Shown here piece by piece: positions 2-12,403 of a stretch of 27,991 nt of DNA; position 1 is the stretch's first letter; every line of letters begins with the position of its first letter. A model generated the notes under the pieces. That model was not told where the DNA came from and did no database searches. It saw nothing but the letters and a program-made list of their open reading frames with translations. The position numbers were made by a program, and so were the translations under genes. This DNA comes from a virus. The stretch is taken from the IMG/VR virus record IMGVR_UViG_3300024343_000093, positions 1 to 27,991 of that record. The stretch is one strand, 5' to 3'.

Positions 2-3000
2 GCAGCAGACGGAGTAAGAAGTACAGAAGGAACAGATGCAGACTCTCCATCTAAAAAGGGTATCAAGGCTGGTAAAGAAGTTGCAGACGGAATTATCCAA
101 GGAATGAAAGAAGGAGAAGCAGCAGTAACTACGCAGGCTTCGCAACTTGGAGATGCAGCAGTACCAACAGCAGCAGAAACACAAGCAAGAGTTGATAGGA
201 TGGATCTTGGTAACAAGGCGTTCTATGATGATCTCAATACCCCAGAGATGCGTGATGAAAGACAAATACTTAAGTCTCAAGATAGACAAAGAAGAAAACT
301 AGGCGCTACAGCAACAGTAGATTCTGTATCTGACACTCCAGTTTCTGCACAAACTTCATCTGTAACTGTTGCTTCATCAAAGAGGGTAGCAGAAGCAACA
401 ACGAAACTAGCAGTAAAAACTGAAGAAGCCGTGACTGCTCAATCACAAGTTGTTCAACAGATTAAAGATGAAAGCAGATCAAGAGTTACGATTAAAGGCA
501 ACACTGTTAATATTCAGAAGGCTAGGGAAGATGCTGATAAGGCTGAAAATGAAGCAGCGATTACAAGAGCAAGAGCAGCAGCCCTTGAAAAGGAGCAAGC
601 AAAGCAAAAGAAAACTGGATCTCCAACTACCATTACTGACGAGCAAGTTCTTGCTGCTAAAGAAAAGGCTAATGCTGCAGAACTAGAGTACGCAAGAGTA
701 AGACAAGAATTGGCAGAGCAGGGAATTACTGCAGCACAGCCAGGGGAAATGCAAGAAATTATTAATCAAGATCCAGTAAAGACTCCATCAAAGGTTAAAA
801 AGGCAGAAGAAATTATGTCTAACGGAACCGTTGAAGCAGGAGATGGAATGCGACGAATTGTTGACGGGACAAATGACACAGCAGACTCAACCCTATTAGT
901 TGCAGATCAAACAGGCGATCTTGCAGATGCAACTGGAGAAGCATTTATTACTCAAACAGGAAGCAATCAAAACCTACTAACGGCTTCTCAACTAGCAAGC
1001 GTAACTGCTGGAAATCTTGGTGATGTGGCTAATGCAACAGATCTAACAGGAAATGCTCAGCAAGATGTGCTTGAGTCAACACAGGCCATTGATGAACAAA
1101 ATAGAAAAATTGAAGAACATAAGCGAATGCAACTCAAGGTAATGCAAGAAGAGTTTGCTAGAAGAGAAGCAATTGCTAATGCTCCTGTAATACCAGAAGG
1201 AACTCAATCAGGGAATCCTGTACTGGGTCCAAATCCTATGGACAGATTAGAGGCCTACGACTATGCAATGGGTAGAGATCCAGGAACATATGGACCAGAT
1301 GATCTGGGAGAACAAGGATTCACAAGAGACCGAAAAGGTCGTATTGTTATGGATCCAGAAAAAGATGCTAAGGGAAAATATAATCCAACAAAGATGTCTT
1401 TGAAGCAAGTTAAAGAAAAGAAGCGTGGCATGCGTAGAGCAGCCGTTGGTCAGTTTTCTGGAAAAGTTTCAGGTGGACTTGGAACTGCAGCAATGGTTGC
1501 TGGTATGGCAGGAGCACCACCACAAGTTACAGCAGCACTTGGTACTGCAGCGACAGTAGCACAGTTTGCTCCAATGATTGCGGGGACTGGACCAATTGGT
1601 CTTGCAGTAGGAGCAGTAGTAGCATTAGGAGCAGCAGCATATCTAGTAAACAAACACTTTAATCAGGTGGCTGCAAAGGCAGCACAGTTCGCAAAAGACT
1701 TATCAGCAACTAGAGATGGATTAAAAGCAATAGGAGAAATGTCTGGCAAGGTTGGGTCTTCTCAAAAGATGGACAAGCGCAGATCAAAGACTCAGTATAC
1801 AAAATATACTGACGCTGTAAAGATTGATAATACTTTTGGCAAGAACTACATGGCTTCTGATATTGGTAAAAAAGAAAAGAAACTATTTAAAGAAAACATG
1901 GAAAAGTTTGGAAAGAGCAAAGCCGTTAGTGATCTAACTTTAAAACTTGCCACGGCTGTTGCAGATGGAGTTATTGATGCTGACCAAGCAAACAGTATTG
2001 CAGCAGGCCTTGCCTTACAACTTAAAGACACATCAATTGAAATGCAGGTTGTTGGTCAACTATCAATGATCCTTGGCCCAGACGGTAAAAATCTAAAAGA
2101 CAACCCAATGTCTACAAGGATCTTGCTTATGGGCAAGGCAAACCAAAGAACTGCAAAACTTGAAAAAGACATTTCTAAAAAGTCTGGGTTTGGAGAAAGT
2201 TCAAGAGAAGAAGTAGCACAACTTGCAGCCCTTGGCATGAACAATATGGAAATGGCTACTATGATGGCAGATCAAATTCAAGTAGAGTATGAGGCTGCAA
2301 AACAAAAATTAGAAACAGAGTTAGCATCAACAGCAAATGCACAAAAGAAACTGGAGATTGAACAACAACTTTCTGATCTTAATTCAGAGAATCTAAAAAA
2401 TTCTCAATTTATGAATGATCAAATCTTTTCTCAGATAATGAAAAATCAGCAGAGTTTTGATAAAGTCTGGAGCGGTTCTGTTTGGGGCAAGCAGGCTATG
2501 CGTGAAGATGCATTCTTTGATGCATCAAGATCACAAGTTACCTCAACCTATAAAGGAACAGACCAAGAAGATGCTGCTAAAAAGTTCTTAAATAAAACAG
2601 AGGCACTTTCAAATGATACAACCACTGGAAAGTATAACTCTAAGACTGGTGAGTATGTAAAGACTGGATTGGGTACTGCTCAAAATGCACAGAGGTTCCA
2701 GGCAAAGATGGAAATGCTTGTTGGAAGTAAAGTCTTAACTCCTACACAAGCAACAAGTTACATGGACCTATTTAGTGGCAAATTAAATGAGTTCGACTTC
2801 TTACTTAATGCTAGCATTAAAACAAAGGGAACAGCAAAAACTAAAGAGTTGTTTGATTCATTTGCAGGCTTCAAGAGTACAAAAGGAAGGCAGCAAGCAA
2901 CAAACATCATTACAGAAATGACAATGAGAAAGAAAGATCCAAAAGAATTTGATGCAATTATGGAAACTATCAGAAGCCTACAGGCTTTAGATGGAAATAC

Positions 3001-6000
3001 CATTGACTTTGAGATTTTGATTACAAAGGTTGGAATGAAGGGCCTTCAGAAAATCAGGAAAGAGCAAGAAGCAATCGAAAAAATAAAAGAAGCAGCAGAA
3101 AAAGAAGGCAAAAAATCTCTTGTTTCAAAAGATGCTACTGGAAAAGAAACTGTTGATCCACGAGTAGCAGGAGTTAGCGCAGATATTTCAGAAGGAATTG
3201 CTGCGTTACAGAAAAATGAAAAAAGGTTTACCGCATTTAAAAACGCAAGCACAGCAGCCCAAGCGGATTACTTACAGGCACTATCAGCAAATATTTTATG
3301 GGAATCAACCGCTAATGCTGCAGAGCGAGATGCAGATATTGCATTTATGGCAGAGCAGTATGCATTAGATCAAGCAATGACTCACAACTTCTCTACAACT
3401 AGCCAGCGATACATTGATCTAGTAGCACAGAAAATTGCAGACCTTAAGGCTTTAAGTCCAACAGAATATGCAGTTGAAAAAACTGGTATTTCATGGAACC
3501 CTGGTGTAACTTATACATCCCCACCACCAACAACAAGCAAGGGTCCTGGCACAGGTAGTGATCCTCTAGACTTCCTAGACGAACTTGCAATGAGAATTAA
3601 GAATGTTCGTGATGGCGCATTTGATGCAACTAAGCCTCTTCAATCAATGATTGCAGCCTTTACTAGCAAGAAAGCCAAAAAAGATGTATCAGCAATGTTT
3701 GACATGTTTGATGGCTTGCAACACAGATTACTTAAATTAAAAGTTCCACAAGAAATGAGAGACGTTATCTCTGGTATGAGTTCAGAAGAGTTTACAAAGT
3801 TCTCTAACTTGGGCAAGGGAAAGAATTTATTTACTTATGATAAATACACCTCTGGGCCAAACAAGGGTAAAGAAAAGCCAAAAACAAAGAAAAATATTAA
3901 GGGACTAACCAATGAAGGTAAGGCTGTTATGGCTACCTACCGTGAAGCAAATGTAGGTGCCTCACAACTAGTAAATAAAGAAACTGTTGTAAATGTTAAT
4001 GAACAAAAGAAGGCCATGAACATGCTCATGTCTGCTGGTCTATCAGCAAAGGATGCTTTAGCAGCAGTTGAAGATCAGTTAGTGGCATCGGCTATTGCTA
4101 ATGGTGCTATGGGAGAATCTGGAACTAAAGAGTTTAAAGAATACAAGAAGGCTATTGTAGAGGCTAATAGCGCTCTTGAAAGACAAGCCATTCTTCAAAA
4201 CTTAACTCAAAAGAATGCAGATTTTAAATTTTCCGTACAAGCCCAAGATTTTGCAAAAGCCTTTGCAGATGCAGGTCTATCTATTGAACAAATTAATGAA
4301 GTGCTTGAAGACCCACAACTTACTGGTCAACTTATAGACGATCTTAAAAATGGTAGAGTTGCTGCAGAACATATAAGAGACTACATAAACTCAATACCTA
4401 AAAGACTTGAAGTATCTTTGACGACTAAAATCAATTCAGGAGATCTAAAGGGCGGAGCAGAGCCAGGTCTTGAAATTGTTGATCAAATGTTTTCAATCCA
4501 AGAAGCACTAATCCGTGCAGGCGCTGCCGATGCTGCATCCGCAGCCAATGTTAAAATAATTGAAGAGAATGAGAAATTAATTGAACAAGAAGAAGCAAAA
4601 CTACGTGCTTTGCAAGAGACTCAAGTTGTAAGAGAAAGTCTTGCTGGAGTTTTAAAGGGTACTGCAGCAGGGGCTTTTGAAGGCACAAAAATGAATTATC
4701 AAGACCTACAGGATGCTGCTAAAGCAATGAGCGATCAAATTGAAGTAGCACAAAGAGACCTTGAAATGAATGCTGAGTACGGATCAAGAGCAATAGACGA
4801 TCTAAATGAAAGTGTAAACGATTTAAACAGAGACATGGAAATGAATAAGGACTGGGGTTCTAGAGCAGTTCAAGCATTACAAGATGAGTCAGGGGTCTTG
4901 TCACATGACTTAGATTTAATTAATAAGGCTGCAGAAGGTGTTAATGAAAAATACGATAAACAAGCAGAGGCCCTTCAAAAAGTTCAACAGATTAATCAAA
5001 ATATTCTTGCTTTGCAACAAGATCAATTAGACCTTGCTGGTGCTTTAACTTCTGGAGATATTTCTTCGGCAGCAAAGGCTGCTCAAAAGATGAGAGCCAC
5101 TGCTGCTGGACAATTTGCTTCAGGACAAACTGATGCACTTGAGCAAGCAAGAAAGAATTCTATAGACTCTCTAAAGAGTGGATCTGGAATGACAAGCAAG
5201 CAGATCCAAGACAGACAGTACGAGATTGCTGAAAAGATTTATAAGATGGAAACCCACCCTGATAAACTTAAAACGCAAAAGCAAATTCAAGAAACTCAAG
5301 ATAAGATTTATACTCTTGAAGAAAAGCGTAAACTCAAGATGGACGAAATTCAGAAAATTGAAGATGCTATTTATCTTGTTAATAAAGAACTTGCAAAAGA
5401 CGACGGGGCTATTGACAAGATAAACAGAAAACTAACTAGTTACAACACAGCCCTCAGCGATGCACAAAAAGCAATTGATAAGCAAGTGGCAGAGATTACG
5501 GTAATGGGTACTGATAAAAAAGGTTGGGATTTAGTAAAGACTAAGTTAGAGGCCTATGATCTTGCTAAGAATTGGGAAAGTGTAAAAACTAAGTTGGCTG
5601 GACTTCTTGCGTCTACTACTGCTATGGAAAAAGACTGGGGAAATATTCACAATTGGCTAGACCAGTTTATGAAGATGCCTGCTGATAAAAAAGTAAATAT
5701 TAATGTTATAACAAAGTATACCTATGAAGGAACTCCTCCTCCTGGAGCAGACAATGTAACTCTAGACGGCTGCCCTGAAGGAATGGTAGCAGATGCAAAT
5801 GGATGGTGTGTAAATGTTCACAAGGTTCTACCTTCTGGTACACCTAATTCATCAGGAACGCCAACGCCTTCACCAAGCAAGACTGCTTCTCCAACACCAA
5901 CAACTACGACTTCTCCAAAACCATCAACTACTTCAACACCAACAAAGAGTACAACATCGACCCCAACATCATCTGGAACACCAACACCAACACCGACTGG

Positions 6001-6709
6001 CCCAAAGGTCGGAGACACAAAGTATGTCGGTTCGATGTTAATGACATGGAATGGCACAATGTGGATGGATCAAGTTGCATATAATAATGCAAAGGTTGCT
6101 CCAAAAGTTGGAGAAACAAAGTATGTAGGTTCCGACCTAATGACCTGGAATGGTTCACAGTGGGTTACTCAAGTTGCATATAATGCTAAGAAGATTGCAG
6201 ATCAAAAGGCTAAAGACTTAGCAGAGAAAGTAGCAGCAGAACAAGCAAAAAATAGAGCACTTGTTGCAGCACTTGAGGCCAAGGCAGCATTAATTCCAAA
6301 ATCACGCACTAAGCCAGGAACTGGAACTTATCTTGGCGGAATGTTTATTCCACCAGTAACACAATATTTGCAACCAGGAACTGGAGTTGTAGTTAACGGT
6401 GTATTGAGAGATCCAGTATACAAGTATTCTGGAGGTTTGATTGGTATGACCCCACGTGGATCAGACACTGTTCCAGCAATGCTTACACCAGGAGAGTTTA
6501 TTATGAGCAAGTATGCTGTTGATAACTTTGGAGTAAATAACTTAAAGGCCATTAACAGCGGATCTACAAGTGTCGGTGGAGACTCAGTGTATAATTATAA
6601 CCTAACAGTAAATGCAAAATCTAATGCCAGCCCAGATGATATTGCAAGAACTGTTATGGCTCAGATCCAACAGATTGATTCACAAAGAATTCGGGGAGTA
6701 AGAATATAA
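2..6709 (+). CDS. Tail tape measure protein (5'-truncated by window)
   Basis: This protein sets tail length and helps DNA pass into the host. The reading frame is open to the first base of the window, so the true start lies upstream; the first internal Met is at 104, followed by 2201 residues. Counting from that Met: an Ala/Lys/Glu/Gln-rich, coiled-coil-like N-terminal part; a hydrophobic Gly/Ala-rich stretch at about 455-515 that could insert into the membrane; long helical regions with Gln/Glu-rich heptad-like segments; a 25-residue tandem repeat near 1551-1600; a Cys pair near 1890-1900; a Pro/Thr/Ser-rich linker at 1910-1967; and a duplicated 33-residue Trp-containing module. The end carries a Gly-Gly...Arg-Gly-Ser-Asp-Thr-Val-Pro-Ala-Met-Leu-Thr-Pro-Gly-Glu-Phe motif, common at tape measure C-termini. 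Size, hydrophobic segment and C-terminal motif are seen directly; the role follows from the family. The stop overlaps the next ATG by one base. Confidence 0.93.
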   Translation, partial: AADGVRSTEGTDADSPSKKGIKAGKEVADGIIQGMKEGEAAVTTQASQLGDAAVPTAAETQARVDRMDLGNKAFYDDLNTPEMRDERQILKSQDRQRRKLGATATVDSVSDTPVSAQTSSVTVASSKRVAEATTKLAVKTEEAVTAQSQVVQQIKDESRSRVTIKGNTVNIQKAREDADKAENEAAITRARAAALEKEQAKQKKTGSPTTITDEQVLAAKEKANAAELEYARVRQELAEQGITAAQPGEMQEIINQDPVKTPSKVKKAEEIMSNGTVEAGDGMRRIVDGTNDTADSTLLVADQTGDLADATGEAFITQTGSNQNLLTASQLASVTAGNLGDVANATDLTGNAQQDVLESTQAIDEQNRKIEEHKRMQLKVMQEEFARREAIANAPVIPEGTQSGNPVLGPNPMDRLEAYDYAMGRDPGTYGPDDLGEQGFTRDRKGRIVMDPEKDAKGKYNPTKMSLKQVKEKKRGMRRAAVGQFSGKVSGGLGTAAMVAGMAGAPPQVTAALGTAATVAQFAPMIAGTGPIGLAVGAVVALGAAAYLVNKHFNQVAAKAAQFAKDLSATRDGLKAIGEMSGKVGSSQKMDKRRSKTQYTKYTDAVKIDNTFGKNYMASDIGKKEKKLFKENMEKFGKSKAVSDLTLKLATAVADGVIDADQANSIAAGLALQLKDTSIEMQVVGQLSMILGPDGKNLKDNPMSTRILLMGKANQRTAKLEKDISKKSGFGESSREEVAQLAALGMNNMEMATMMADQIQVEYEAAKQKLETELASTANAQKKLEIEQQLSDLNSENLKNSQFMNDQIFSQIMKNQQSFDKVWSGSVWGKQAMREDAFFDASRSQVTSTYKGTDQEDAAKKFLNKTEALSNDTTTGKYNSKTGEYVKTGLGTAQNAQRFQAKMEMLVGSKVLTPTQATSYMDLFSGKLNEFDFLLNASIKTKGTAKTKELFDSFAGFKSTKGRQQATNIITEMTMRKKDPKEFDAIMETIRSLQALDGNTIDFEILITKVGMKGLQKIRKEQEAIEKIKEAAEKEGKKSLVSKDATGKETVDPRVAGVSADISEGIAALQKNEKRFTAFKNASTAAQADYLQALSANILWESTANAAERDADIAFMAEQYALDQAMTHNFSTTSQRYIDLVAQKIADLKALSPTEYAVEKTGISWNPGVTYTSPPPTTSKGPGTGSDPLDFLDELAMRIKNVRDGAFDATKPLQSMIAAFTSKKAKKDVSAMFDMFDGLQHRLLKLKVPQEMRDVISGMSSEEFTKFSNLGKGKNLFTYDKYTSGPNKGKEKPKTKKNIKGLTNEGKAVMATYREANVGASQLVNKETVVNVNEQKKAMNMLMSAGLSAKDALAAVEDQLVASAIANGAMGESGTKEFKEYKKAIVEANSALERQAILQNLTQKNADFKFSVQAQDFAKAFADAGLSIEQINEVLEDPQLTGQLIDDLKNGRVAAEHIRDYINSIPKRLEVSLTTKINSGDLKGGAEPGLEIVDQMFSIQEALIRAGAADAASAANVKIIEENEKLIEQEEAKLRALQETQVVRESLAGVLKGTAAGAFEGTKMNYQDLQDAAKAMSDQIEVAQRDLEMNAEYGSRAIDDLNESVNDLNRDMEMNKDWGSRAVQALQDESGVLSHDLDLINKAAEGVNEKYDKQAEALQKVQQINQNILALQQDQLDLAGALTSGDISSAAKAAQKMRATAAGQFASGQTDALEQARKNSIDSLKSGSGMTSKQIQDRQYEIAEKIYKMETHPDKLKTQKQIQETQDKIYTLEEKRKLKMDEIQKIEDAIYLVNKELAKDDGAIDKINRKLTSYNTALSDAQKAIDKQVAEITVMGTDKKGWDLVKTKLEAYDLAKNWESVKTKLAGLLASTTAMEKDWGNIHNWLDQFMKMPADKKVNINVITKYTYEGTPPPGADNVTLDGCPEGMVADANGWCVNVHKVLPSGTPNSSGTPTPSPSKTASPTPTTTTSPKPSTTSTPTKSTTSTPTSSGTPTPTPTGPKVGDTKYVGSMLMTWNGTMWMDQVAYNNAKVAPKVGETKYVGSDLMTWNGSQWVTQVAYNAKKIADQKAKDLAEKVAAEQAKNRALVAALEAKAALIPKSRTKPGTGTYLGGMFIPPVTQYLQPGTGVVVNGVLRDPVYKYSGGLIGMTPRGSDTVPAMLTPGEFIMSKYAVDNFGVNNLKAINSGSTSVGGDSVYNYNLTVNAKSNASPDDIARTVMAQIQQIDSQRIRGVRI
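4754..4903 (+). repeat. 25-residue tandem repeat in the tape measure protein
   Basis: Two adjacent 75-base units encode related 25-residue blocks, each opening with Arg-Asp-(Leu/Met)-Glu-Met-Asn and followed by (Tyr/Trp)-Gly-Ser-Arg-Ala-(Ile/Val) and a Leu-rich helical half. A weaker third copy may continue into the Asp-Leu-Asp-Leu stretch that follows. The units are diverged at the DNA level, so this is a structural protein repeat rather than a recent duplication. It probably forms a regular helical segment of the tape measure rod. Confidence 0.7.
5831..6004 (+). repeat. Pro/Thr/Ser-rich low-complexity linker coding region
   Basis: This stretch of the tape measure gene codes almost only for Pro, Thr, Ser, Gly and Lys, using repeated cca/aca/act/tct codons. 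It is a low-complexity, likely extended and flexible linker between the helical body, which ends in a short Cys...Cys segment, and the duplicated Trp-rich module downstream. The frame stays open and in phase throughout. The repetitive bases also produce spurious open frames on both strands here. Confidence 0.8.
6008..6205 (+). repeat. Duplicated 33-residue Trp-rich module in the tape measure protein
   Basis: Two contiguous 99-base units (6008-6106 and 6107-6205) encode near-identical 33-residue modules. Each has the pattern Val-Gly-(Asp/Glu)-Thr-Lys-Tyr-Val-Gly-Ser, then Leu-Met-Thr-Trp-Asn-Gly, then Trp, then Gln-Val-Ala-Tyr-Asn. The spacing of Gly, Tyr and Trp looks like a small beta-hairpin module of the kind found in wall- or sugar-binding proteins, but I cannot assign a family. 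It follows the flexible linker and precedes the conserved C-terminus. Confidence 0.85.
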
Positions 6710-7392: not shown

Positions 7393-10300
7393 TGTTTCAA
7401 AATGAAGAACTTAAGAATCACCTAGAAACTAGTTCTGTTGTATCTACTCAGACTGCTGTGATTGCTGAATGGAATATGAACATTCCAACAAATATTTTTA
7501 CAATAGGAAACTATAGGTATAGACCCACATCAACGAAGCCATCCGATGTAAAATATACATCTCTTCCAAATACTTTTGATGCAAACGATGATGGTAATTT
7601 TTACAAAGGCGCTACAGATGCTGATGTATTAATTGATGGAGGATTTACTGATGCTGGAGCACCAACTACTTTAACAGTTCTTAAAGATAGAGTCAAGATG
7701 CTTTATTCTTTAGAAGATTGCTTTAGACCTTTCAGACCAAGGTCAGGAATTAATAAAGCAAGGTACATTCCTGGTTCATATATTCATAGCCCTAATGCTA
7801 ACATGGCTAGAAGACCTAGATATTACCTTTCAGATAAAAACGATAAGTTTAAATACTGGTCATCATATAGAACAGAGGGTACTTCAACGTACGGAATCTC
7901 TAGTAACAATATAGTCTCTGGCAGATACATAATTGAAGATGCGGTTCCGTTTGTTGTGTATAATGAAAAGATTCCAACAAATAGGCTAGTTATAAAGATG
8001 CAGACAAATGTTGGAGATATTGATCTTGGAACTTCCGATCCACTTTATGGAGATAACAATAGAACAGTTCCCAATAAGTGGAAGGTTCAATCATTAAAAG
8101 ATAATAATTGGGTAGACTTGTTTTCATTTAACGAGGGTACAAAAAGATCAGACGGAACAAATGTAATTAAGCATGATGGCTATGTAGAGTTATCTTATGG
8201 ATTAATCGTTCCAAGCAAGTATAAAGACATGTTTATTTACGCAGAGACTCTCCTGTCTGAAACATTAAAGCCAATTAAGGCAGTACACGGATATGCTTAT
8301 TTAATTAAATCAAGTGTATCAGATATTGGTGTTTTTCATATCTGGAATAAAGACAAGTGGGAATTATTTACTCCAGTTTATGGTTGGCAACTAGAAGAAG
8401 AGACGGTTGATAGACTGACTAACTTTGTAACAGATCTAACAAGCCCAATAGCCTACACCTTAGCAGCAGATGGAACTCAAAAATATAGAGAGTTTGAGTA
8501 TCTTAAAGGAGTTCGTATTGTTGTTGACAACATGGTAAAGGCAAATTCTTCATTTGATCTAATTGAAATTTCTCCAAGACTTACAGTAAACTTAACAGAC
8601 AAGGTTACAGATATCTCTGTAAAGAAGAGTGCATCAGATTTAGGAACTAGCGGTATGCCAGTTGGACAACTCTTGGCTTCAACAGGATCTTTGAGTCTTT
8701 TTGATTATGATGATTCTTTTAATCCAAATAATTCTTCTAGTATAATCAATAACTATATAACTAGGAATCTTCAAATAAAGATATATGACATTATCGTTAA
8801 TGTAGATGGGTATGATTATTTTGTTCCAATTAAAACAATGTACTCAGAAGGCTTTCCTACACTGGATAATAAAACAAAAAGAGTTGAGTTAAGTCTGCGT
8901 GACTTATACTTTTATTTTGAATCAACGCTAGCACCACAAACCCTTTCTACTGGAGTATCTTTAAGTTCTGCAGTTTCAATGCTTTTGGATTCTATTGGTT
9001 TTTCAAACTATGCTTTTAAGCGAGTTGCTGGCGAAACAGAAATCACAATCCCATATTTCCATATTCCACCAGAAACAAGTATTGCCCAAGTTCTGCAAGA
9101 TTTGGCGGTATCAAGCCAGACAGCAATGTTCTTTGATGAATACAATAACTTTATCATGATGAGTAAAAACTACATGATGCCTACAGAATTACAAAGAGCA
9201 ACAGATATAACTCTCTATGGATCAGCAGATTCTGAAGATACTGGGGTAGTTAGAAACAGCCAAACAAAACCCAAACTTGCAAACATTGCAGAGATTACTA
9301 CACAGGACAATCAACTATATAATAGCGGTAAGATTACTTATAGTTCAAAATACATTCAAAGATCTCTTGGTAGCATTAAGCAGGCTAGTTTAATTGATAA
9401 TGAACAGTCTTGGATATATAAGCCAGTCCTATTATGGGAAGTTTCTGGCGAGAGCAATACAAAGTCTGTTAATGGTGAGGTAGGAAACCAATCCACATAT
9501 GTTCTTAGTGCTATACCACTTAACTCAGATCTATCAGACACAAAGCCTTTTGTTTCAAATAATCAAATAAAAAATAACGTTATGGATTTTGGAGAAGGAG
9601 TTTATTGGATCACAAGATACAATGGATACTTCTATGCCAATGGAGAAATAATTAAGTATGATGCTGTTGAGTATAGCGTCCCAGGTGTTGGAAATGTTTG
9701 GATTAATAACGTTCAAGAGTATGAGTACTACTTTGCTAAACTTCCATTTAATGGAAAGATATATCCAACAGGCCTTGTAAGAATTTACTCTGAACCAAAC
9801 TATGAAGAGGTTCAGGGGGTTTTAAGATTAAAAAATGGAGAAGTTTCTAAGCATGGTAGAGGACAGTTTGGAACAACACCTGTTTATCATGTTGCTGGAT
9901 TAAACCCATATTGGGCAGATAATGCAAATGTTCGTGGTTGCACAATGAGAAGTGAGTTTTTATTTAATCCACTAAGAACCACTACTCTCACCAATGTAAA
10001 TTCAACGGGATCTACTCTTACAGTATCTTCTACCTCTTCTATTTCAGTAGGACAACAGTTGACCATGCTTAGTGGAACTGGAAAGTTATCAACAATACAA
10101 AAAACTTTAGTTATAGCAAAGCCAACAGAGACAACTTTGCTAGTTAGTCCAGCGCCTACCACTGCTCTTCTTGACGCAACTATTTATTTTGAGACTCTAG
10201 TTCCAACAACGATTGATGCTCCAGCAGGAATTAATAACACACTGGCTCAGCAAACAACAAGAAATGGAATTATTAAAAACTTCTTCGCTTCTAATTATAT

Positions 10301-11870
10301 TGAAGATTCAAAAGTAAGAGCAATGCTAAGTACTCAATCGGGAACTCTTCAATCTTCTGCTTTAGTCATGACTGGACCAGGGTTTACAAGTACAGAAAAG
10401 CCTAGAGATTTTGTTTCTTATGTTTATAAAAAATTAACAGATAAGTTTACTCATTTTGGAACCAGAATTAGAATAGTTGGAAAAATTGAGAATGACGCAT
10501 CTCGTGGACAAACCCCAGTAGGATCTACAGCATATTTTGTAATCCCAGGAACAACTCCAGACAAAGATATTAGTATCATTGGCGGTAGTGGTGGAATGGC
10601 AGTAATGATTAATCCAGAATCAAATAGTGGATATTATTTTGAAATTGTAGCCCTTGGTTCAAGTTCTTTGACTAGTGAAGAACAACAGAATGTAAACAAC
10701 TTGCTATTCTATAAAGTAGGGCAATCAGGCACAGACGCTGTTCCAACTATTCTTTGGCAAGGACTTGCAAATGTTATTGTTGATGATGGAAAGTTTACTG
10801 GTCAATATAGAATGGTTACTGAAGAAAATCCAACAGTCTATGATCTTGCTGTAGAGTATCAAGATATTGGAAGTTTTAGAAAGTTCTTCTTGTATGTAAA
10901 CAACAACTTGGTAGCCACGGCTATTGACGAAAACCCTATTAAAGCATACAATAATATGGCATTATTTACTCGTGGATCTTCCAGGGTAATGTTTGAAAAC
11001 ATCTATGCTATTACTAATAACTATAGTCAAAACACTGCTTTTGCCGTTAATACCCCAATCAATTCTATTTTTGGAGACACAGAAATAAACGTAAGTGAGT
11101 CTTTGAGAAAATATGCAATGAGTGGAGCAATCCAATCTACCTATCTTTCTGGAATAAGTTCTTCATCCCCACCCTCATATAATATATACTTTGAAGAGTT
11201 TGGCAGTATAATGAGAGAGGCAGCATCGTTTAATGTTAAATATGATAAAGCCTACCCAGCGCTTTACGCAAAGATGTCACCAACTTTTAATTCTATAAAA
11301 GGGTATACGGTTTCAGGATTTAGAGCAGGTTCGTATGGGGCAGAGTTTATGGTATTCAACGCAACCGACACCGCTTTAAGCCTAGATGAAACAACGGGTA
11401 ACTATTTAAGAATTCAAGGAATAACGTTTACACAGCAATCAAATAATGATTTAACTGTTGACGAGTATTTTTCAAAGAACTCTGACTTTACTGATCCACA
11501 ATTTGTTGGCTCAACGCTAGTGTCTTCTCCGTTTAAAATAAAGAAAGACTACGAAGACATTAAACTAAGCAGACTAACCTACGGAGTAAAAGACTTTGCT
11601 CTAACCGTCCCTTACCTTCAAACAGCAGACGATGCAAACGATCTTATGAAGTGGATGGTTTCAAAGGTAATGAAACCAAGGAAGTCAGTCGGAATAAAGA
11701 TTTTTTCTAACCCTACTATTCAATTAGGAGATATTGTTAATATAGACTACTTTGAAAATGGAATAGACAAGGTTGATTCAAAAGATAAACGCTTTGTAGT
11801 GTATAATATAGATTATTCAAAAAGTTTGCAGGGACCAAGCATGACCATTTACGTAAGTGAGGTAGCCTAA
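7392..11870 (+). CDS. Large tail-tip / baseplate hub-like minor tail protein
   Basis: A 1492-residue virion protein, starting at the ATG that overlaps the previous stop (TAATG). An in-frame start 33 bases upstream exists but lies inside the previous gene. The middle part (about residues 390-600) runs from a strand-rich segment with Val-Asn-Leu-Thr-Asp-Lys-Val into a Leu-Arg-Asp-Leu segment and an Ile-Ala-Gln-Val-Leu-Gln-Asp-Leu-Ala helix, as in hub (gp27/Tal-like) domains of tail tips. The C-terminus (about 1420-1492) has the Gln-Leu-Gly-Asp-Ile-Val-Asn-Ile segment often closing such hubs. Between them, about 960-1210 looks like a jelly-roll (LamG or concanavalin-like) region that could bind surface sugars. 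Near 865-940 sits a small Thr/Ser-rich beta module. No peptidase or muramidase motif was recognised. A central tip protein with host-contact insertions is inferred. Confidence 0.7.
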   Translation: MFQNEELKNHLETSSVVSTQTAVIAEWNMNIPTNIFTIGNYRYRPTSTKPSDVKYTSLPNTFDANDDGNFYKGATDADVLIDGGFTDAGAPTTLTVLKDRVKMLYSLEDCFRPFRPRSGINKARYIPGSYIHSPNANMARRPRYYLSDKNDKFKYWSSYRTEGTSTYGISSNNIVSGRYIIEDAVPFVVYNEKIPTNRLVIKMQTNVGDIDLGTSDPLYGDNNRTVPNKWKVQSLKDNNWVDLFSFNEGTKRSDGTNVIKHDGYVELSYGLIVPSKYKDMFIYAETLLSETLKPIKAVHGYAYLIKSSVSDIGVFHIWNKDKWELFTPVYGWQLEEETVDRLTNFVTDLTSPIAYTLAADGTQKYREFEYLKGVRIVVDNMVKANSSFDLIEISPRLTVNLTDKVTDISVKKSASDLGTSGMPVGQLLASTGSLSLFDYDDSFNPNNSSSIINNYITRNLQIKIYDIIVNVDGYDYFVPIKTMYSEGFPTLDNKTKRVELSLRDLYFYFESTLAPQTLSTGVSLSSAVSMLLDSIGFSNYAFKRVAGETEITIPYFHIPPETSIAQVLQDLAVSSQTAMFFDEYNNFIMMSKNYMMPTELQRATDITLYGSADSEDTGVVRNSQTKPKLANIAEITTQDNQLYNSGKITYSSKYIQRSLGSIKQASLIDNEQSWIYKPVLLWEVSGESNTKSVNGEVGNQSTYVLSAIPLNSDLSDTKPFVSNNQIKNNVMDFGEGVYWITRYNGYFYANGEIIKYDAVEYSVPGVGNVWINNVQEYEYYFAKLPFNGKIYPTGLVRIYSEPNYEEVQGVLRLKNGEVSKHGRGQFGTTPVYHVAGLNPYWADNANVRGCTMRSEFLFNPLRTTTLTNVNSTGSTLTVSSTSSISVGQQLTMLSGTGKLSTIQKTLVIAKPTETTLLVSPAPTTALLDATIYFETLVPTTIDAPAGINNTLAQQTTRNGIIKNFFASNYIEDSKVRAMLSTQSGTLQSSALVMTGPGFTSTEKPRDFVSYVYKKLTDKFTHFGTRIRIVGKIENDASRGQTPVGSTAYFVIPGTTPDKDISIIGGSGGMAVMINPESNSGYYFEIVALGSSSLTSEEQQNVNNLLFYKVGQSGTDAVPTILWQGLANVIVDDGKFTGQYRMVTEENPTVYDLAVEYQDIGSFRKFFLYVNNNLVATAIDENPIKAYNNMALFTRGSSRVMFENIYAITNNYSQNTAFAVNTPINSIFGDTEINVSESLRKYAMSGAIQSTYLSGISSSSPPSYNIYFEEFGSIMREAASFNVKYDKAYPALYAKMSPTFNSIKGYTVSGFRAGSYGAEFMVFNATDTALSLDETTGNYLRIQGITFTQQSNNDLTVDEYFSKNSDFTDPQFVGSTLVSSPFKIKKDYEDIKLSRLTYGVKDFALTVPYLQTADDANDLMKWMVSKVMKPRKSVGIKIFSNPTIQLGDIVNIDYFENGIDKVDSKDKRFVVYNIDYSKSLQGPSMTIYVSEVA

Positions 11871-12403
11871 TGGCAACTGACGCAACACCAAACTCTTTTG
11901 CTATGAGTGCAACCGAGCAAGCATTAGCACAAGCAGCAATAAAAATAGCCACACCAGCCCTGGTAGCATTAGGCAGTCCAACTCTAAACATAGAGTACAT
12001 GACAGACCTAATCTTTGAAGACATTGGTGGACAAGAACTAATTAATATCTCAAGAGGAGATATTATTAATGGTCAAAATATCATGTACCAGCCAATTAAA
12101 AATTTGACAAATATTCTGTTCCAATATAATCCACAGAATATATTAAAACTACAGGATACTTCAGCAACATACTTTAAGAATTTTCCAATAAGACTTGAAA
12201 CCAAGATCCCCAATTGTGGAACTGGGTTTGCATATGTAAGTGGACAGAGGGTTGACAACTGCAAGATAGTTTATATGGACAAAGATCCAAACTCAATCAC
12301 TTATGGAAGCATTATTATAGACTTAATCAATCTTCAATCAGATGAACAGGTAGAAGTGCAGGTGTTGTCTTCAGGGGCAATACTTAGTGATACAATATAC
12401 TAG
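11870..12403 (+). CDS. Minor tail / virion structural protein
   Basis: A 177-residue protein of unrecognised family in the tail cluster. Its ATG overlaps the stop of the hub-like gene by one base. The N-terminus is Ala/Thr-rich and helical, followed by an Ile/Asn/Gln-rich, likely beta part with two Cys residues about 13 apart near 133-146. It lacks a signal peptide or membrane segment. The position between the hub-like protein and the fibre-like proteins suggests a tip adaptor or base of a fibre; that is inference from order only. The end of the gene overlaps a possible -10 element for the next gene. Confidence 0.55.
   Translation: MATDATPNSFAMSATEQALAQAAIKIATPALVALGSPTLNIEYMTDLIFEDIGGQELINISRGDIINGQNIMYQPIKNLTNILFQYNPQNILKLQDTSATYFKNFPIRLETKIPNCGTGFAYVSGQRVDNCKIVYMDKDPNSITYGSIIIDLINLQSDEQVEVQVLSSGAILSDTIY
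12388..12396 (+). promoter_or_regulatory. Possible extended -10 promoter (TGATACAAT)
   Basis: An extended -10 match (TG, one base, TACAAT) lies over the end of the preceding gene. It is 16 bases before the ATG at 12413, with a ribosome site (AGGGGA) between. The best -35 candidate, TTGTCT at 12365, is spaced 20 bases away, which is too far, so activity would rest on the extended -10 alone. It coincides with one of the few real gaps between tail genes. Confidence 0.3.

Follow-up and report, generated by a model that had tools for sequence, protein, structure and literature searches.

What are two small Trp-containing modules doing just ahead of the C-terminus of a tape measure protein (TMP), given that TMPs are mostly regarded as rulers that occasionally carry an enzyme? 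The question arises from a 27,991-base virus record, the whole of which we call the window. It lies within a 92,289-base IMG/VR contig (ten of ten sampled 60-base words were exact and in register), in which the TMP frame has a full length of 3408 codons. The start of the frame lies to the left of the window; the residue numbers of the original prediction begin at ATG 104, and the true frame begins outside the window. The assignment of this giant frame as a TMP was upheld by profile matches to its N-terminal part, for which phrog_10030 was the best tape-measure PHROG (E=5.8e-91, read from L177) and Pfam PhageMin_Tail scored 95 bits against a cut-off of 33.2. Based on these matches the frame is a TMP. 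The phage itself is aquatic and its host is probably actinobacterial, the latter being considered likely because a WhiB gene lies on the 92 kb contig (one of seven among 12 records to give a match) and Corynebacterium was the sole positive among 14 control genomes.

The Cys pair, Pro/Thr/Ser linker and two 33-residue modules that had been described before the conserved C-terminus are all present, with a linker of 59 residues. The features referred to below are as follows, all on the plus strand:

2..6709, plus strand: 3' part of the TMP, in a frame open at the left window edge (PHROG and Pfam matches)
5525..6424, plus strand: cassette site, bounded by a nearly invariant Trp in the last conserved helix and by the C-terminal anchor (alignment of relatives)
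5771..5809, plus strand: Cys pair CPEGMVADANGWC, two short strands in the model
5825..6001, plus strand: Pro/Thr/Ser linker, 59 residues, 88% P/T/S/G, pLDDT mostly below 50
6002..6100, plus strand: module 1, 33 residues, VGDT..G...TWNG..W (DNA repeat, protein comparison and model)
6101..6199, plus strand: module 2, 33 residues, modeled with three strands and one helix (pLDDT 89 in the nine-sequence run)
6170..6289, plus strand: long predicted helix continuing module 2 (AlphaFold2 model)
6425..6706, plus strand: conserved C-terminal anchor, 94 residues, containing GSDTVPAMLTPGEFIMSKYAV (invariant alignment columns)

Layout and predicted fold of the cassette

The two cysteines of the pair, with codons starting at 5771 and 5807, are the only ones in the 3408-residue TMP frame (residues 3097 and 3109 in stop-to-stop numbering). 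The modules that follow the linker had been called near-identical, which overstates their likeness, as only 24 of 33 residues (73%) are identical. At the DNA level they form a repeat with a spacing of 99 and an identity of 76%, and different codons are used at eight of the 24 residues identical between them. Among ungapped 33-residue self-matches within the window's part of the TMP, the two modules rank first, with a score of 136 compared with 48 for the best of 40 shuffles, and the repeat is therefore far beyond chance.

Single-sequence AlphaFold2 prediction of window positions 5756-6307 gave pLDDT values mostly below 50 for the linker and of 73-87, by ten-residue blocks, for the modules, each of which was modeled as three strands and a helix; only one of the five models was good (67.9, the rest scoring 52.2 to 43.8). 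For one module alone, prediction with a nine-sequence alignment gave a pLDDT of 89 (85-89 across five models). That alignment was composed of the two window modules and seven fiber-type modules and presupposes the kinship with fibers that is considered below, so the model depends on that kinship. In keeping with what the original prediction entailed, the modules are predicted by these models to be folded, not disordered, and the linker to be floppy.

Fold searches with the module returned no match at E<=0.001 in either the PDB or BFVD, and several of the top weak BFVD rows (E 0.05 to 0.3) were cyanophage fiber or fiber-like proteins. The lone row with Z>=2 from VIA-align 2, a 34-residue chain of a PhiKZ capsid entry (Z 2.6 over 26 residues), was set aside, and weak Foldseek rows for choline-binding repeats (E about 9) were judged to be at chance level. 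At the sequence level, comparison of the module with PDB sequences yielded nothing credible (one row, E=0.2).

A site of exchange between related phages

Relatives of the TMP C-terminal region were represented by the best 80 of 140 loci from one scan, together with two further scans. A frame with the anchor motif is present in all 80 loci; after removal of seven frames of less than 400 residues and 28 near-duplicates, 45 remained, including that of the window's phage (L002). Of the 30 invariant columns in the alignment of these 45, 29 are at or beyond residue 338 of the first row, and the distance from the last conserved helix to the anchor ranges from 96 to 328 residues.

To locate the variation along the protein we took the C-terminal 1,200 residues from each of 53 distinct frames, out of 98 that were long enough, and compared every pair (1,378 in all) in bins counted from the C-terminus. 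Among the 66 pairs whose identity is 60-99%, agreement is 91-93% over the final 80 residues, falls to 46-56% with 13-24% gaps at residues -121 to -320, and is back at 85% at residues -441 to -480. There is a milder, nearly gapless dip at -561 to -680, and 204 more distant pairs also show variability beyond -880.

The same stretch stood out in DNA comparisons of eight pairs chosen for their unlike cassettes, three of which set members of one group (L138, L141, and L142) against L039. The match breaks at the cassette site in all eight. Three of the pairs are close (89-96% DNA identity on both sides), and in these the cassette has been replaced wholly or in part. L050 and L056 are 89.2% identical over 5,121 positions before the cassette, then have 290 and 332 unmatched bases, respectively, followed by 95.7% identity over 6,709 positions. 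For L036 and L069 the values are 94.9% before and 89.5% after, flanking 165 and 102 unmatched bases, and for L014 and L023 they are 93.9% and 88.8%, flanking 232 and 250 unmatched bases. The L014/L023 swap was partial, since an inner stretch of 259 positions is still 78% identical; the linker is TP-rich in L014 vs. GGST in L023, the Cys-loop sequences differ, and L022 has the same stretch. The more distant pairs are L046/L053 (80.3% before, 86.5% after, with 606 unmatched bases in L046), L063/L138 (77.2 and 82.3%) and L138, L141, and L142 each against L039 (81.6 and 82.6%). Other pairs have kept their cassettes (L097/L100, 93%; L155/L157, 97%), and L155/L159 is the reverse of the usual pattern, the cassettes being 96% alike and the upstream TMP only 77%. 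The stretch before the conserved anchor is thus an exchange site in the TMP family of the window's phage. A second break in the DNA match, at 7121-7277 of L039 and 7454-7570 of L036 (about window 7500-7850), falls near the start of a 1,500-residue minor tail protein.

In its statement on TMPs, a survey of phage protein shuffling could confirm no genuine recent mosaicism (PMC10684548), while in the three close and five more distant pairs here one bounded stretch of the TMP has been replaced, wholly or partly, between matching flanks.

Contents of the site and origin of its modules

The site is filled in different ways. Based on motif patterns, Cys-pair repeats occur in 15 of the 45 cassettes and any cysteine in 17, leaving 28 with none; TP repeats are found in six and GP, GS, or GN repeats in five. 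LysM, a module known to bind cell walls, is present in four of the 45 by Pfam (E<=0.01; the motif pattern finds three) and not detected by Pfam in the other 41. Three cassettes (L014, L020, and L022) bear DxDxNGIPD repeats, which resemble calcium-binding thrombospondin type 3 motifs. WxGxxW also occurs in three, L002 included, and the stretches concerned in L024 and L054 have sequences unlike the window's module. The remaining Pfam rows in the relatives, among them DIRP (in five), TrAA12, and Terpene_syn_C_2, were taken as chance.

The original prediction had held that absence of the modules from all close relatives would count against it and, read literally, that is what we found, as the 33-residue module was detected in none of the other 44 non-redundant relatives. 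Its only close relatives in IMG/VR were on two contigs, both identical over the query; 16 pattern matches in GTDB contigs yielded none that was confirmed, and annotated phages gave nothing below E=0.3. This absence argues against an essential role for this particular module, yet the site before the anchor stays occupied in other ways in the relatives that lack it.

The distribution of cysteines is highly biased. In the 45 relatives there are 93 cysteines among 8,543 cassette residues vs. one among 76,132 residues outside, and that lone cysteine is a boundary effect in L058, which has eight in a slightly longer stretch. At the 0.81% cysteine content of the contig's other large plus-strand frames, some 600 would be expected outside the site. 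The count is even in all 17 of the cysteine-bearing cassettes. When the comparison was widened to 69 distinct frames, cysteines were present within 330 residues ahead of the anchor in 28, and their number was even in 27 of the 28; the exception is L142, with three cysteines in a 291-residue frame that starts after an in-frame stop. L148 has one cysteine far upstream of the cassette, and L162, which is outside the 69, has three in a 341-residue frame cut by the locus edge. Since the sequences are related we put no probability on these counts; the simplest reading of them is that the cassette cysteines form disulfide loops.

Similar motifs were seen elsewhere. Frames of 930-942 residues in L165-L167, L170, and L171 have a QGPCGPSRPYYNYYTGECVA-like Cys-loop as in the L039 TMP (94% over 31 residues between L165 and L039). 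We withheld the name tape measure from these frames of about 940 residues, as no PHROG match was found on scanning L165 and L166. A virion protein of Synechococcus phage S-SCSM1 (L398 2204-5056), annotated as an endolysin or lysozyme and encoded next to a gene annotated as tape measure, likewise contains the DTVPAMLTPGEFVMSK motif of the TMP anchor.

The original prediction likened the layout of the cassette to that of secreted wall-binding proteins and proposed contact with the cell wall or membrane. No wall-binding family reaches its Pfam cut-off on the window's TMP, there is no LysM above the Pfam cut-off in that protein, and DUF2510, with which the window's module has a WNGxxW core in common, scores only 18.8 bits (cut-off 24) over 14 profile positions. 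The likeness to wall proteins is weakened, the module resembling the N-terminal modules of phage tail fibers more closely than any wall protein found. The idea of contact gains some indirect support from the relatives, which have LysM above the cut-off and paired-cysteine loops at the same site. Scanned singly, the family TMPs of L063, L071, and L033 score 36.9, 36.8, and 36.6 bits for LysM against a cut-off of 20.9. Two TMPs of other types also have LysM near the C-terminus, L111 (41.5 bits, in a frame that has Pfam TMP_3 at 89.2 bits) and L127 (25.0 bits, in a frame that matches tape-measure PHROGs). The distance from LysM to the C-terminus is 171-182 residues in four family TMPs and 110-111 in the two of other types.

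A different tail-cluster protein begins with LysM modules that share 60-77% identity with the one in L063; it is the homolog of the protein encoded at window 11870-12403, which has no N-terminal LysM motif in the window's phage. This small protein, which has a FEDIGGQEL motif, bears an N-terminal LysM-type motif in L103-L110, L113, and L114, and likewise in L117-L122, L124, and L125; the LysM was confirmed by Pfam in L104. Judging from these sequences it is a second place for wall modules in other phages. Among 22 distinct loci with both genes visible, LysM is in the TMP in one, in the other protein in two, and in both in none. The occurrence of similar LysM modules in unrelated tail-cluster proteins suggests that these modules have been transferred between them. 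Elsewhere on the 92 kb contig there is a protein with a PASTA domain, which is a peptidoglycan-binding type, and a fibronectin type III domain (L175:12290-14332), and another that carries a major tropism determinant N-terminal domain (Mtd_N; L176:2802-4964).

A scan with TWNGxxWV returned at least 120 stretches, and 119 occurrences were in frames of at least 50 residues among the matches listed. Among these matches, after L274, which is the phage itself, the best were N-terminal modules of fiber-like proteins such as L276. We then considered the 18 positions outside the search pattern in a shuffle test, from which loci L272 to L274 were left out and which informs those other positions only, its input having been preselected by TWNGxxWV. 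The best of the 106 distinct contexts among the matches listed was equaled in one of 4,000 shuffled sets, and the best identity at the free positions in five of 4,000; the top four contexts were all of the fiber-like N-terminal type. These N-terminal modules (FPxSPxVGDTYxxNGxTWxWNGxxW) have spacing and residues as in the window's module, which differs from them in being duplicated, inside a TMP and followed by a helix. Supporting the relationship is phrog_13666, built independently of the present analysis, which matches overlapping profile parts in the window modules (E=1.5e-5) and L276 (E=4.1e-4). L276 also matches tail-fiber PHROGs, and the similar proteins found for it in annotated phages (E=1e-6 to 4e-3) come mostly from Synechococcus phages; some of these proteins are annotated as tail fibers and others as hypothetical. 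With an HMM built from the annotated-phage modules the window modules scored only 4.3 bits, which 29 of 3,000 shuffles equaled or exceeded (best 8.0), and an earlier version with two shortened seeds had the same outcome. A seed HMM from sequences chosen for their likeness to the module was circular and was not counted. Based on these comparisons it is likely, not proven, that the window's module is kin to the N-terminal modules of fiber-like phage proteins, and a bacterial wall protein is disfavored as its source.

Proposed envelope contact and its alternatives

No other single explanation does as well as envelope contact, given that some relatives have LysM in this slot, and we consider the prospects about even that this part of the TMP is a non-enzymatic cassette, open to exchange, that makes contact with the envelope. 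The conserved 94-residue C-terminus would anchor the TMP in the tail tip, and the cassette would be packed directly behind this anchor as small beads on a flexible linker, an arrangement that would suit a narrow tube. At infection the tip would open and the TMP would exit C-terminus first; the beads would be among the first segments of the ruler to reach the host wall or membrane, and might steady the emerging chain or channel there. Each lineage would equip the site with small modules of its own, such as LysM or Cys-loops, and the window's phage with a disulfide loop and two fiber-type Trp modules. A tail tip location of the TMP C-terminus in this phage is proposed by analogy to lambda, for which that location is described (PMC10721106). 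We infer the disulfides, the binding to wall or envelope, its timing, and any benefit of the cassette.

For the window's particular module the main rival is docking inside the virion, in which the Trp modules attach the end of the TMP to a tail-tip protein or fiber without host contact. The likeliest kin of the module favor this, both in the shuffle test and through the profile shared with L276, as N-terminal fiber modules may serve virion attachment, not host attachment. Against it are the low score given by the annotated-phage HMM, the LysM and Cys-loop cassettes that relatives hold at the same site, and the fact that the module was not found in the other lineages sharing the anchor; we regard docking as somewhat unlikely. 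In a further alternative the region is a neutral spacer, the stretch tolerating almost any insertion and the modules being recombination debris kept only for length and solubility. Many cassettes may indeed be plain spacers, since most have neither a Pfam LysM (41 of 45) nor a cysteine (28 of 45), and the wide range of lengths and the TP, GP, GS, or GN repeats are in line with this. A spacer does not account well for cysteines that are even in number and almost wholly inside the site, for the recurrence of LysM near the C-terminus in TMPs of different types, or for a module that is predicted to be folded, and as an explanation of the region we consider it unlikely. It is highly improbable that a cell-wall hydrolase domain of the TM4 or T5 type was missed by the sequence searches. 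The position of the cassette in the protein is the same as that of the T5 muralytic fragment, but no hydrolase domain was found by Pfam in three pieces that together span the TMP frame (P0001, L177:5830-9400, and L177:9400-13000). Modules of 33 residues are also small for a hydrolase.

TMPs with wall-active C-terminal cargo are already known, and the variation on them seen here is a bounded site that swaps small modules in which no enzyme was found. In the account of the T5 tail, a cleaved C-terminal fragment of pb2 forms a trimer with a muralytic domain in the hub cup, and release of this fragment to digest the wall is proposed (PMC10038345). The window's TMP would resemble T5 pb2 in that wall-active cargo separates the body of the ruler from a hub-held C-terminal piece; the cargo is an enzyme in T5, whereas in the window's TMP no enzyme was found by Pfam and the small modules are swapped between related phages. 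The tape measure of mycobacteriophage TM4 is described as having a peptidoglycan hydrolase motif that is dispensable for viability and aids entry (PMC1796659). It is, as the window's TMP probably is, a siphophage ruler with a wall-related accessory module and an actinobacterial host, but the TM4 motif is catalytic and the modules of the window's TMP are small, yielded no enzyme match and are located by the C-terminal anchor. Basilisk-like and related Bacillus phages and prophages are reported to have TMPs with LysM accompanied by a transglycosylase or M23 endopeptidase domain (PMC6145125). LysM in the TMP is thus shared with relatives of the window's phage, which differ in having small modules at an exchange site and no enzyme by Pfam in the stretches scanned. 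In the open-access literature that we searched we came across no bounded TMP exchange site combining small non-enzymatic modules with paired cysteines confined to it.

A further-reaching possibility, which we put forward tentatively, is that the TMP itself is a host-adaptation protein, the exchange site by the anchor swapping disulfide-stapled or LysM-type beads between related phages, so that adsorption would be followed by a second recognition step, with the emerging ruler having to hold the wall before DNA passes. If the cassette binds the host envelope, infection by these aquatic phages would depend in part on a piece that stays concealed within the tail up to entry, and the site would lend itself to testing what the TMP does in DNA delivery.
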